A DNA stretch of 64,000 nt, taken from positions 2,480,001-2,544,000 of the forward strand of contig NC_016633.1 in the NCBI RefSeq assembly GCF_000236685.1, in the 5' to 3' direction. Shown one piece after another: positions 24,725 through 29,663 of the stretch. Made by a program: the position numbers and the translations under genes. Below the pieces are notes generated by a model. That model was not told the DNA's origin, searched no databases, and worked only from the letters and a program-made list of their open reading frames with translations. The DNA comes from Sphaerochaeta pleomorpha str. Grapes (GTDB taxonomy: Bacteria > Spirochaetota > Spirochaetia > Sphaerochaetales > Sphaerochaetaceae). How positions within the stretch are numbered: position 1 is the stretch's first letter; every line of letters starts with the position of its first letter.

Positions 24725-24752
24725 CTGTATGAAGATTAGCAATCTTATACAG
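24725..24752 (-). promoter_or_regulatory. Hairpin in the leader of the antiporter gene
   Basis: CTGTAT(G)AAGATT pairs with AATCTTATACAG around a 3-nt loop, with one bulged base. It lies about 36 bases upstream of the preferred start codon. It could terminate the upstream unit or shape the antiporter mRNA leader. Confidence 0.45.
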
Positions 24753-24859
24753 GAGTCATTGGCTGTGACAACAGCGGTTAACGGCGAACTCCACCACCAG
24801 TGACTATGATGTACTTGAAATTGCAATATTAGTCAATTCACAGCGCTGCTTGTTTTCTT

Positions 24860-25889: not shown

Positions 25890-26840
25890 TCAGAAATTGC
25901 AGGGTTGCCGGGCTTTTGTTTTCTCTGGCAATTTTTCAATATCGAAAGGGGTTTCCTGATACACGAAATAGTTCAACCAGTTACTGAACAAGAGATTGGC
26001 ATGTGATCGCCAACAAACCGTAGGGGCTCGGGAACTATCATTGTCTGGATAATAGTTACGGGGCAGGGAAGGGTTTTTCCCCGCTTCAAGATCCCTGCGG
26101 TACTCATTGTCCAAAGTCAGGTCATCATATTCGCTATGACCGGTTACAAATACCTTCCGACCATCCTTGCTTGCTGCCAGATATAACCCAGCCTCTTTTG
26201 AAACGCTCAACACCTCAAGGTCTTCGATGGCATGGACATCTTCGGTGAAGACAGTGGTATGCCTGCTATGGGGTGCAAAGAAAGTGTCATCGAATCCCCG
26301 CACCAGTTTATTCTTTGGTTGGAGAACCGAATGGGGGAATATGCCGAAGAGTTTCTTTTTCAAAGGATGTTTTTCCAATCCATAGTATGTATGGAGGGCT
26401 GCCTGGGCCCCCCAGCAGATAAAAAGAGAGGCATAGACATTGGTTTCCGCCCACGCAAGGATTTTAGTAAGTTCCTCCCAATACTGGACCTCGGCAAATT
26501 CTTTGGTCTCTACCGGGGCACCGGTTACTAGCAACCCATCGAACTGCTGGGATTGTACATCGGCAAAGGTCTGGTAGAACGTTTTGAGGTAGGAAAGCTG
26601 CGTGTTTTGGCTCTGGTAGGTTGCTGTGCAGAGGAACGTTGTCTCTACCTGCAAAGGGGTGTTCCCAATCAGTCGGAGGAGCTGGGTCTCTGTTGCAACC
26701 TTGGTGGGCATGAGATTCAAGATGGCAATTCTCAGCGGTCGGATGTCCTGGGAAACAGCCCGTTCACTGGTCATGACAAAGATATTTTCCTCAGTTAATG
26801 TTTGGACGGCAGGAAGGCCTCCGCATGTTTTTACTGGCAT
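25890..26840 (-). CDS. metA: Homoserine O-acetyltransferase, MetA type
   Basis: A 316-residue MetA acyltransferase, which activates homoserine for methionine synthesis. With the start at MPVKTCGG (AAGGAG in front), the catalytic Cys falls at 142 (FICWGAQAALH), His at 235 and Glu at 237 (VTGHSEYDD), exactly the family numbering. Residue 111 is Glu (VTGAPVETKEF). In the MetA family Glu111 goes with acetyl-CoA and Gly111 with succinyl-CoA, so this should be an acetyltransferase despite the usual name 'succinyltransferase'. That fits the adjacent O-acetylhomoserine sulfhydrylase gene, whose stop lies 13 bases upstream. Expression is expected from the metY leader region. Confidence 0.95.
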   Translation of the reverse strand: MPVKTCGGLPAVQTLTEENIFVMTSERAVSQDIRPLRIAILNLMPTKVATETQLLRLIGNTPLQVETTFLCTATYQSQNTQLSYLKTFYQTFADVQSQQFDGLLVTGAPVETKEFAEVQYWEELTKILAWAETNVYASLFICWGAQAALHTYYGLEKHPLKKKLFGIFPHSVLQPKNKLVRGFDDTFFAPHSRHTTVFTEDVHAIEDLEVLSVSKEAGLYLAASKDGRKVFVTGHSEYDDLTLDNEYRRDLEAGKNPSLPRNYYPDNDSSRAPTVCWRSHANLLFSNWLNYFVYQETPFDIEKLPEKTKARQPCNF

Positions 26841-26853
26841 AGCTGACTCCTTG

Positions 26854-28143
26854 TTAGATTGCCGCGAAAGCCTGGTCAAGATCAGAAATGATATCATCAA
26901 CATGTTCAATCCCGATTGAGAACCTGATCGTATTGCCTTGGATTCCCTGTTGTTGCAATTCTTCCTGGTTTAATTGAGCATGCGTGGTACTGGCCGGATG
27001 GATTACCAATGATTTTGCATCTGCAACATTCGCCAGAAGCGAAAATATCTGAAGGTGGTCTATAAATGCCTTGGCTTCTTTCTCCCCTCCTTTCACCGTG
27101 AAGGTGAAAATTGAAATTCCCCCCTTGGGAAAGTACTCGTTATAAAGTTTGTGGTGCCTGTTTCCGGGTAAACAAGGATGTTTAACTGACTCAACTTTTG
27201 GATGCTCGCAGAGGTAGGCAACCACCTTGAGTGCATTCTCTACATGTCTTTCCACCCGTAGGGAAAGGGTTTCCAGACCTTGGAGGAACAAAAAAGCATG
27301 CAACGGGGCAATGGTTGCTCCGGTGTCTCTGAGCAATACCGCCCTTGCTTTCGTAATCCAGGCAGCTGCGCCGGCAGTCTTGGTGAAACAGAACCCATGG
27401 TAGCTGGGATTTGGTTTCGTAAGGGACTCGAATTTGCCACTCGACTCCCAGTCGAATTTCCCGCTGTCGATGATGACACCCCCGATTGCAGTCCCATGCC
27501 CCCCGATGAATTTTGTTGCCGAGTGGACTACGATATCTGCACCGAATGCAATAGGTCGAACAAGGTACGGTGTGGCAAAGGTATTATCGACTACCAAGGG
27601 AATATTGTGCCGGTGGGCAACAGCTGCAACTGCTGCTATATCGATGAGGGTGGCATTTGGATTTCCGATGGTCTCGATGAAGAGAGCTTTTGTGTTTGGC
27701 CTGATTGCCCTCTCAAAACTGCCTTGTTCATCTGCATCGACGAAGGTCGTGGTTATGCCGAATTCGGGAAGAGTATGGGCTAAAAGGTTGTACGTTCCGC
27801 CGTAAATGGTTTTTGCTGAAACAAAATGATCACCGTTTTGGGCAAGATTGAGAAATGTATAATAAACAGCAGCTGCCCCAGAAGCCACAGCAAGCGCTGC
27901 AATCCCTCCTTCGAGGGCGGCGATACGTTTCTCGAAAACTTCCTGGGTGCTGTTTGTCAATCTCCCATAGATGTTTCCCGAATCGGAGAGGTTGAATCGC
28001 GCCTCGGCGTGTGCGCAGTCTCTGAACACATAGGAAGTGGTCTGGTAAATGGGTACGGCACGGGAATCGGTGGCACTATCGGCCTGTTCCTGTCCGACGT
28101 GGACCTGAAGTGTCTCGAAATGGAGATTTTTACTATTGCTCAT
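26854..28143 (-). CDS. metY: O-acetylhomoserine sulfhydrylase
   Basis: A 429-residue PLP enzyme of the Cys/Met metabolism family. Lys211 in VVHSATKFIGGHG is the PLP lysine; DNTFATPYLVRP and SGAAAVYYTFLNL are family motifs. The length (about 430) and the insert typical of OAH sulfhydrylases separate it from the shorter cystathionine gamma-synthases. It makes homocysteine from O-acetylhomoserine and sulfide in the cytoplasm. metA follows at once, giving a two-gene unit for the direct sulfhydrylation route. The ATG has AAGGA eight bases upstream, and that ribosome-binding site is complementary to an element about 150 bases upstream in the leader. Confidence 0.95.
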   Translation of the reverse strand: MSNSKNLHFETLQVHVGQEQADSATDSRAVPIYQTTSYVFRDCAHAEARFNLSDSGNIYGRLTNSTQEVFEKRIAALEGGIAALAVASGAAAVYYTFLNLAQNGDHFVSAKTIYGGTYNLLAHTLPEFGITTTFVDADEQGSFERAIRPNTKALFIETIGNPNATLIDIAAVAAVAHRHNIPLVVDNTFATPYLVRPIAFGADIVVHSATKFIGGHGTAIGGVIIDSGKFDWESSGKFESLTKPNPSYHGFCFTKTAGAAAWITKARAVLLRDTGATIAPLHAFLFLQGLETLSLRVERHVENALKVVAYLCEHPKVESVKHPCLPGNRHHKLYNEYFPKGGISIFTFTVKGGEKEAKAFIDHLQIFSLLANVADAKSLVIHPASTTHAQLNQEELQQQGIQGNTIRFSIGIEHVDDIISDLDQAFAAI

Positions 28144-28368
28144 GGTAGGGTTCCTTGTTTTTCAATCATGGAGATACAGCTATTGCTCTGCTGTAACGGC
28201 TCTGAAGGGAAAATTATAGGTTGCCTGCCATACGGTCTTTGACCGAACCGCATCTTGGAAAGATTGCTTGTTTCATAAAACACCTTGTGTAGGAATAGGA
28301 ACCCCGGTCATTGCTAGGGTCACGATTCTCAGTTCATTGATTTGATTGCTTGCAAAGGTTGTTGTATG
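28144..28368 (-). promoter_or_regulatory. Long structured leader of metY-metA
   Basis: Between the leader-peptide stop and the metY start lie 225 transcribed bases. GGGTTCCT (minus-strand sense of 28297-28304) is perfectly complementary to AGGAACCC, which spans the metY ribosome-binding site (28148-28155). The same element can instead pair locally as ACCC/GGGT (28317-28320 with 28301-28304). Nearer the gene are a CGGTC-AAA-GACCG hairpin, the sequence GGCAGGCAACC and a TACAGC/GCTGTA stem. No U-tract terminator is visible, which favours control of translation. All pairings are by eye. Confidence 0.5.
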
Positions 28369-28425
28369 TTATGCGCAGCGGCACATCATACCATCTGGTG
28401 AATCAGTCATAGACATTGACTTCAT
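28369..28425 (-). CDS. Putative Met/Cys-rich leader peptide upstream of metY
   Basis: An 18-codon ORF reading MKSMSMTDSPDGMMCRCA, preceded by GGAGG with 7 bases to the ATG, the best ribosome-binding site in this part of the window. Five Met and two Cys in 18 residues, ending Met-Met-Cys-Arg-Cys, fit a peptide that would stall ribosomes when sulfur amino acids or their charged tRNAs are low. It starts about 45 bases after a strong promoter and lies in the 330-base leader of the metY-metA unit. The function is inferred from composition and place only. A chance ORF cannot be excluded without comparative data. Confidence 0.55.
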   Translation of the reverse strand: MKSMSMTDSPDGMMCRCA

Positions 28426-28477
28426 GGTGCCGCCTCCAAGAAAAGGATATCCTACCAAAATGGTTGGAATTTCGGAT

Positions 28478-28507
28478 AGCATACAGAACTTGCTTCCTTT
28501 TAGTCAA
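28478..28507 (-). promoter_or_regulatory. Strong promoter of the metY-metA leader
   Basis: Minus strand TTGACT, 18 bases, TATGCT. Expected start near 28470, giving a leader of about 330 bases before metY. Confidence 0.7.
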
Positions 28508-28736: not shown

Positions 28737-29663
28737 ATGGTTCCAATAGGAAATGCAATCCTGGGGGTTTTGAGCTGGAAACCTTGTACAGGTTATGAAC
28801 TGAAAAAGCTATTTGAAACCTCGTCATTCATGTATTGGTCTGGAAATAATAACCAGATCTATAAGACTTTGTTATTGCTCAAGAAAGAAGGACTTGTAGA
28901 GAATGAGGTAATCCACCAGGAAAGCTCACCCTTGAAAAAACGATATTTTATTACAGGGGCCGGTACAGATGCCTTGAGAAAATGGTTGAAATCTTCTCCT
29001 CAGGCTCCTGAATATCGAAAATCCTTCCTTGTGCAGGTAGCCTGGTCTGATTCTTTGTCTGACCAAGAGTTGGACCTGATGCTGTCAGCCTATGAAGAGG
29101 AATTGACCTTGCATTCAGTCATGGAACAGGAAAAAATGAAACGTGGCCTAAACAATCCCCGAAGAAATTCCCGTGAAGAGTATATCTGGGAAGCTATAGC
29201 CCAGAATATCCTCGATTCTTACAAGAAGGATTTGGATTGGGTGAGAGAGGTGAGGCAACAACTTCGTGAAATTCCTCCCGCTGTCGAGGAATCCCTTATT
29301 CACTATGTCTTCGGGGAAGCCGATGCAAAGCCGTATCTGGAAGTCTTTTCGGCTTCTCCCCCGATGGGGACAACAGAAGATATCATTAGGTTGCTTGGTC
29401 TCTGCAGCGAACGTAAAACCCATCTGCTTTTGTTGCATGAATCAGCGTTGGCAGAGACGTTTTTCCATCTCTCTTCCAAGGTAGCTGGCAATATGCTACA
29501 GAAACTTGCCAACTATACTATGAAAACGGCATTGATTGTTTCTTCTTCAGACCGTTACCAAGGCAAGTTCTGGGAAATGGCGTTAGAGGCAAACCGTAGC
29601 GGTCAATTCAGGATTTTTGAGCAGAAAGAAGATGCCATAACCTGGCTTACTTCTCCTAGATGA
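28737..29663 (+). CDS. PadR-family regulator fused to a DUF4180-like domain
   Basis: A 308-residue protein. Residues 5-80 are a PadR winged helix (ILGVLSWKPCTGYELKKLFETSSFMYWSGNNNQIYKTLLLLKKEGLV). Residues 85-185 are the helical PadR C-terminal dimer arm. Residues 198-305 resemble DUF4180 (LLLLHESALAETFFHLSSKVAGNMLQKL ... FRIFEQKEDAITWL), a small domain of unknown role that occurs alone or on PadR proteins. Start has AAGGAG seven bases upstream. The palindrome over its promoter points to autoregulation. Its stop overlaps the convergent acetyltransferase gene by 8 bases. Target genes and ligand are unknown. Confidence 0.87.
   Translation: MVPIGNAILGVLSWKPCTGYELKKLFETSSFMYWSGNNNQIYKTLLLLKKEGLVENEVIHQESSPLKKRYFITGAGTDALRKWLKSSPQAPEYRKSFLVQVAWSDSLSDQELDLMLSAYEEELTLHSVMEQEKMKRGLNNPRRNSREEYIWEAIAQNILDSYKKDLDWVREVRQQLREIPPAVEESLIHYVFGEADAKPYLEVFSASPPMGTTEDIIRLLGLCSERKTHLLLLHESALAETFFHLSSKVAGNMLQKLANYTMKTALIVSSSDRYQGKFWEMALEANRSGQFRIFEQKEDAITWLTSPR

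Follow-up and report, generated by a model that had tools for sequence, protein, structure and literature searches.

The usual control of methionine genes is by SAM riboswitches, T-boxes or repressors. Control through a translated peptide is the principle of the ermC and ermB translational attenuators, in which a ribosome stalled on the leader in response to an antibiotic frees a sequestered Shine-Dalgarno (SD) sequence, and of the MTO1 arrest peptide of plant CGS1, where AdoMet causes arrest within the coding region and the mRNA then decays. The nearest precedent that we found is MetL, the predicted leader peptide of C. jejuni metBA, which is 20 amino acids long with three Met and has been proposed to sense charged tRNA (PMC3847290). 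MetL is a single ORF limited to three Campylobacter species, and it was proposed to attenuate transcription, yielding a short, terminated RNA (PMC3847290). In Actinobacteria, predicted Cys leader peptides have several Cys codons in a row close to the stop, and no obvious terminator (PMC1262725), and metA/metZ of S. meliloti are controlled by a SAM-II riboswitch (PMC9373788).

The metY-metA locus of Sphaerochaeta pleomorpha str. Grapes lies in a window of 64,000 nucleotides (the whole stretch of DNA that we analysed) of a complete genome of 3.59 Mb, and we consider it reasonably likely, judging from sequence comparison, that its leader mediates translational attenuation in response to methionine, through two leader peptides in tandem, here named uORF1 and uORF2. 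The likeness to MetL lies in a short Met-containing ORF before methionine genes; unlike MetL, with its one ORF and termination, the Sphaerochaeta leader has two ORFs, no terminator that we could find, and a helix at the metY SD that would work at the level of translation. As in ermC and ermB, the stall site in a uORF abuts the anti-SD that sequesters the downstream SD, although here the gene is an amino-acid biosynthetic one, a second uORF stands in tandem, and the stalling is a prediction. The actinobacterial Cys leaders resemble this one in that a conserved leader ORF carries codons for sulfur amino acids and an obvious terminator is missing, whereas uORF1 is Met-rich, has one or two Cys and no run near its stop, and is followed by a second ORF. 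Plant CGS1 is comparable in that a PLP enzyme of methionine synthesis, from the superfamily of MetY, is there controlled through a peptide, but the sequences are unrelated and the CGS1 arrest sits in the coding region. The SAM riboswitches of met genes have the same physiological target; in the metY leader region of the window, however, neither a SAM riboswitch nor any other known RNA gave a significant Rfam match, and RF00162 (SAM-I) was absent from all seven genus genomes tested, while being present in seven other genomes of the family. In the literature that we searched, which included few subscription papers, we found no description of a methionine-gene leader peptide in Sphaerochaeta, or of a tandem Met leader.

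Results

The features of the locus are collected in Table 1; the 5' part of metA overlaps the end of metY. A divergent gene on the plus strand (28737-29663), with a weak PadR-type regulator match, shares its intergenic region with the metY leader and may encode a transcriptional regulator of metY. A fluoride riboswitch aptamer (RF01734, 43.7 bits, 24743-24807, minus strand) lies downstream of the metY-metA-esterase genes. In sister genera (L098-L103 and L105) a small ribosomal-protein-like gene, by eye probably rpsU, adjoins the metY leader upstream together with its terminator.

Table 1. Features of the metY-metA leader and its genes, in positions of the window
Feature	Position	Strand	Detail
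Promoter TTGACT-18-TATGCT	28478..28507	minus	-35 28507-28502, 18-nt spacer, -10 28483-28478
5' hairpin TCC-A-ACC/GGT-A-GGA	28450..28468	minus	directly 3' of the -10 box
SD of uORF1, GGAGG	28433..28437	minus	7 nt before ATG 28425; an SD precedes every uORF1
Stem H2	28378..28433	minus	GCGGCAC (28433-28427, overlaps uORF1 SD) with GUGCCGC (28384-28378, Met-Cys-Arg codons)
uORF1, 18 codons MKSMSMTDSPDGMMCRCA + stop	28369..28425	minus	ATG at 28425, stop 28371-28369; frame conserved with in-frame indels; excess of synonymous change (P=0.011); rich in Met
Weak SD of uORF2, AAGGTG	28281..28286	minus	
uORF2, 20 codons MKQAIFPRCGSVKDRMAGNL + stop	28214..28276	minus	Met16 codon 28231-28229; third-position excess
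Predicted metY-sequestering helix, 5' side (UAUGG, AGG, CCU, UUUUC)	28209..28232	minus	overlaps and continues after Met16
Predicted metY-sequestering helix, 3' side	28141..28163	minus	metY SD AAGGAA (28156-28151) and start codon
metY, O-acetylhomoserine sulfhydrylase	26854..28143	minus	TIGR01326, E 2.6e-187, exceeds cut-off
metA, homoserine O-acyltransferase	25890..26909	minus	MetA_acetyl NF047918, E 4e-138, 459.8 bits vs cut-off 460.5

A sequence-only reading of this DNA had described the promoter, the GGAGG and an 18-codon ORF with five Met and two Cys, all of which we located on the minus strand as described. A longer in-frame ORF starting from ATG 28482, present in the ORF listing, was rejected, as that ATG falls within the -10 box. 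We compared the metY leaders of 24 genomes, namely 23 of the 26 genus genomes and one of another genus of the same family (G172); the three genus genomes left out had no metY match, or a metY truncated at a contig edge. Every one of the 24 metY leaders with intact upstream DNA contains uORF1, with promoter, SD, start and stop in corresponding positions, the promoter of the relatives being a TTGAC/TATACT-like pair. The stem of the 5' hairpin shows compensatory change in L019-L021, and it may be either a 5' stem of the mRNA or a DNA operator. Within the genus its motif was found at metY only, and because of this a wider regulon is unsupported and the hairpin was rejected as a regulon-wide operator. 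Palindromes (AAACCAGTAGGTTTA or CCTACCAGGTTGGTAGG) also stand right after the -10 box in metY leaders without uORFs (L090, L092-L095 and L097 of genus g31, and L018); they have GTAGG(A/T)T in common with the Sphaerochaeta hairpin and are possibly the operator of some regulator.

The uORF1 peptides range from 16 to 21 codons, each difference in length being a whole number of codons (as in MMRSNNNDSSDPCMCRMAL, MMRSNDSSDPCMCRMAL and MMRSTNDSSDPCMCRMAL), and keep across relatives their richness in Met and an acidic-Ser pair whose serine codon alternates between TCN and AGY. Column-shuffle tests gave a synonymous fraction of 0.259, compared with 0.139 after shuffling (P=0.011), and P=0.005 for residue similarity, third-position excess alone being not significant (P=0.14). 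Among 47 control ORFs, chosen as short (14-24 codons) and preceded by an SD, none had four internal Met and two had three, and a single one had at least four Met plus Cys; this was MTRTLSILCITMCSSMRMPLQG of L091, itself located before metY of another genus. The genome in question (G438, of g31) has two metY-like genes, one of which follows the Met/Cys-rich uORF; its single SAM-I riboswitch lies elsewhere. Through its Met enrichment uORF1 is a leader peptide rich in codons for the end product, as in attenuators of the trp type; the intrinsic terminator of that type was found in none of five leaders when the mRNA strand from uORF1 to metY was examined, and a terminator match in L020 lies inside the 5' hairpin, upstream of uORF1. 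Both uORFs are single copy per genome and occur at metY only. The weak matches of the uORF1 model elsewhere in the genus (L054-L060) look like chance on inspection, and two more in family f19 (L062, L064) have in common only a purine-rich SD and an ATG before a ribosomal-protein-like frame.

The sequence-only reading had taken this ORF for a genuine leader ORF of metY-metA, and had named its lack of conservation, or frameshifts within it, among relatives as grounds for giving the claim up. We examined both and neither occurred: the alignment of upstream regions kept start, stop and SD with the synonymous excess reported above, the Met richness was maintained, and coding tests together with conservation indicate that the leader holds the short, apparently translated ORF that a translational attenuator requires. 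Sensing of Cys, which had been proposed alongside that of Met, fared differently, as it gained no independent support. The uORF1 peptides have their one or two Cys never in a run, and the Cys codon in ATG TGC C is always TGC. Because these codons also form an arm of stem H2, conservation of Met-Cys in uORF1 is not purely a matter of decoding, and therefore the conservation of the TGC and Met codons alone is no evidence for Cys sensing. By eye, H2 shows a compensatory change from GGCGGCAC:GTGCCGCC to GGTGGCAC:GTGCCACC in L003/L004, with C-G to U-A setting these apart from L001/L002/G172. Relatives have Asn or Tyr in place of the uORF2 Cys; where Cys is kept, both TGT and TGC encode it.

Between uORF1 and metY sits uORF2, whose peptide in the window is MKQAIFPRCGSVKDRM-AGNL. 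It is present in all 24 intact leaders with the consensus MKxAxHPRCGSVxDHM (core PRCGSVxDHM), and is better conserved than uORF1. It has changed 22 times at the first codon position, 21 times at the second and 61 times at the third (P=5e-5), its synonymous fraction is 0.47 against a null of 0.165, and the constraint before Met16 acts on the protein and not on the DNA, as in an arrest peptide. Sister genera without uORF1 carry related ORFs in the place of uORF2 (RCSSVRDRM, RYGSVRSSM, RNGLVRASM and SFGPVHSSM). Met16 is invariant, including in the uORF2-like ORFs of sister genera g136, g18 and g33, and R8 nearly so across genera, with Cys9, Gly10 and Ser11 replaced in relatives. Matches to uORF2 across the class with E above 0.002 were mostly partial, many of them within longer frames, and were treated as chance. 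In L007, L008 and L009 the stop after Met16 is lost, and the frame continues to, or beyond, the metY start.

In folded leaders the metY SD pairs with the bases right after the Met codon of uORF2. Counting from the first base of codon 15 as +1 (the P-site codon when Met16 occupies the A site), the SD core pairs within +10 to +17, at about +12 to +17, in all 17 main-clade genomes tested (L005-L017, L019-L022); this register is constant although 38 to 61 nt separate Met16 from the SD there and the SD sequence shifts from AGGAG to AAGGAA. Both sides of the helix have changed in eight of its ten pairs, across sublineages, and its covariation score is 0.523, compared with 0.246 after shuffling and no more than 0.21 after sliding; as the rows share ancestry, the shuffle count cannot be read as a probability, but pair types do differ between sublineages. 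With the footprint set by E. coli geometry, which may not hold for Sphaerochaeta, a stalled ribosome would cover the RNA as far as about +16, and masking this footprint at Met16 reduced the cost of opening the SD by 3.0-10.7 kcal/mol in 13 main-clade genomes (P <=0.013, shuffle test). In the window this helix differs in sequence: UAUGG (including Met16) pairs with CCAUG at the metY start and CCU with AGG of the SD, and a ribosome at Met16 would lower the opening cost of SD plus start codon by 3.4 kcal/mol, which 0 of 200 shuffles equalled; the leader segment as a whole has no unusual stability (z -0.73). The gain was 4.9 kcal/mol in L004 (P=0.025), marginal in L003 and G172, and missing in L002 (-0.1 kcal/mol). 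Sequestration of the downstream SD by a helix with its 5' arm at the predicted stall site, as expected of an attenuator, is thus strongly indicated for the main clade and the genus, moderately for the window and its own sublineage, and not for L002. In sister genera g18 (L099-L101) and g33 (L105) the metY SD (AAGGAACC) pairs with GGTTCC in the SD region of the uORF2-like ORF; this alternative pairing extends to GGAGGTTCC:GGAACCTCC, and amounts to the same parts in a different wiring.

In the main clade the uORF1 SD region also takes part in a further helix, H4, whose partner strand, the SD region of uORF2, lies 3-6 nt past the stop of uORF1. H4 is 98% paired and has one compensatory position, was not separated from shuffles (110/500), and did not turn up in the lineage of the window; we count it as supporting evidence only. 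What these stems suggest is that translation of uORF1, or stalling on it, may gate uORF2.

Discussion

In the mechanism that we favour, uORF2 would be the direct switch. When methionine, and hence charged elongator tRNA-Met, is scarce, a ribosome would wait with the Met16 codon of uORF2 in its A site and mask the roughly ten next nucleotides, which hold the metY anti-SD; the metY SD (in the window the start codon as well) would be freed, and metY-metA translated. When methionine is plentiful, the ribosome would pass Met16 and depart, the helix of anti-SD and SD would re-form, and metY would be shut. Upstream, the Met-rich uORF1 would gate uORF2 through H4 in most of the genus and through H2, which contains its own Met-Cys codons, so that translation or stalling on uORF1 would set the accessibility of uORF2. 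The coding constraint on both ORFs, the covarying metY SD helix, the fixed register of Met16, and the lack of a terminator and of SAM-I were all computed, and it is from these that we infer the stalling itself and methionine as its signal. The direction of the uORF1 effect is likewise a proposal, as its stall position and sign are ambiguous. The sequence-only reading was correct as to the class of regulator, a leader peptide, but its anatomy was incomplete, as the best-supported switch resides at the overlooked uORF2, where a Met codon abuts the metY anti-SD. Other points speak against our proposal: by classical standards a single Met codon senses poorly, masking brought no gain in L002 and a marginal one in L003 and G172, and sister genera g18 and g33 pair the metY SD with the uORF2 SD region instead.

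A further objection, directed at plain starvation, is that the R, G, S, V and D residues of uORF2 are kept upstream of Met16, where codon starvation alone has no need of them. This conservation as protein, with the invariant Met16 and the nearly invariant R8, would be explained if the ...PRCGSVxDHM chain bound a small molecule in the exit tunnel and stalled there, instead of simply waiting for charged tRNA-Met; candidate ligands are methionine, S-adenosylmethionine, homocysteine or acyl-homoserine. In this bacterial sensor, the nascent chain of uORF2 would respond to methionine, to SAM or to an intermediate of the pathway and arrest at the invariant Met, with the Met-rich uORF as its gate, and it would replace SAM riboswitches in Sphaerochaeta. 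We regard such a sensor as a tentative, rather unlikely possibility, given that no known arrest motif is present, that Cys9, Gly10 and Ser11 are substituted in relatives, and that the sign of the feedback requires arrest at low methionine, the opposite of plant CGS1, in which excess AdoMet causes arrest.

Translation of the two uORFs might also hold the metY initiation region open or closed constitutively, with no sensing involved. The tight spacing of the ORFs, SD helices that translation would open, and the run of uORF2 into metY in L007-L009 agree with such coupling, for which, however, the Met enrichment of uORF1, the invariant Met16 and the peptide-level constraint on uORF2 would all be needless, and we consider it improbable. 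Least credible of all, in our opinion, is an unrecognised riboswitch or protein-binding RNA in which the ORFs are incidental: the conserved 5' hairpin, H2 and H4 stems could be read in this way, but the structure is kept mainly around the SDs, Rfam gave no significant match, and two frames stay open under codon-level constraint with in-frame indels only.

Under attenuation by tandem leader peptides, the cell probably senses its methionine supply with its own ribosomes and not with a riboswitch. If this is true, a lineage of spirochaetes would sense methionine by means of ribosomes, through a start-site switch that can be placed to the nucleotide, and uORF2 would be a candidate, and a short one, for an arrest peptide that responds to methionine or SAM.
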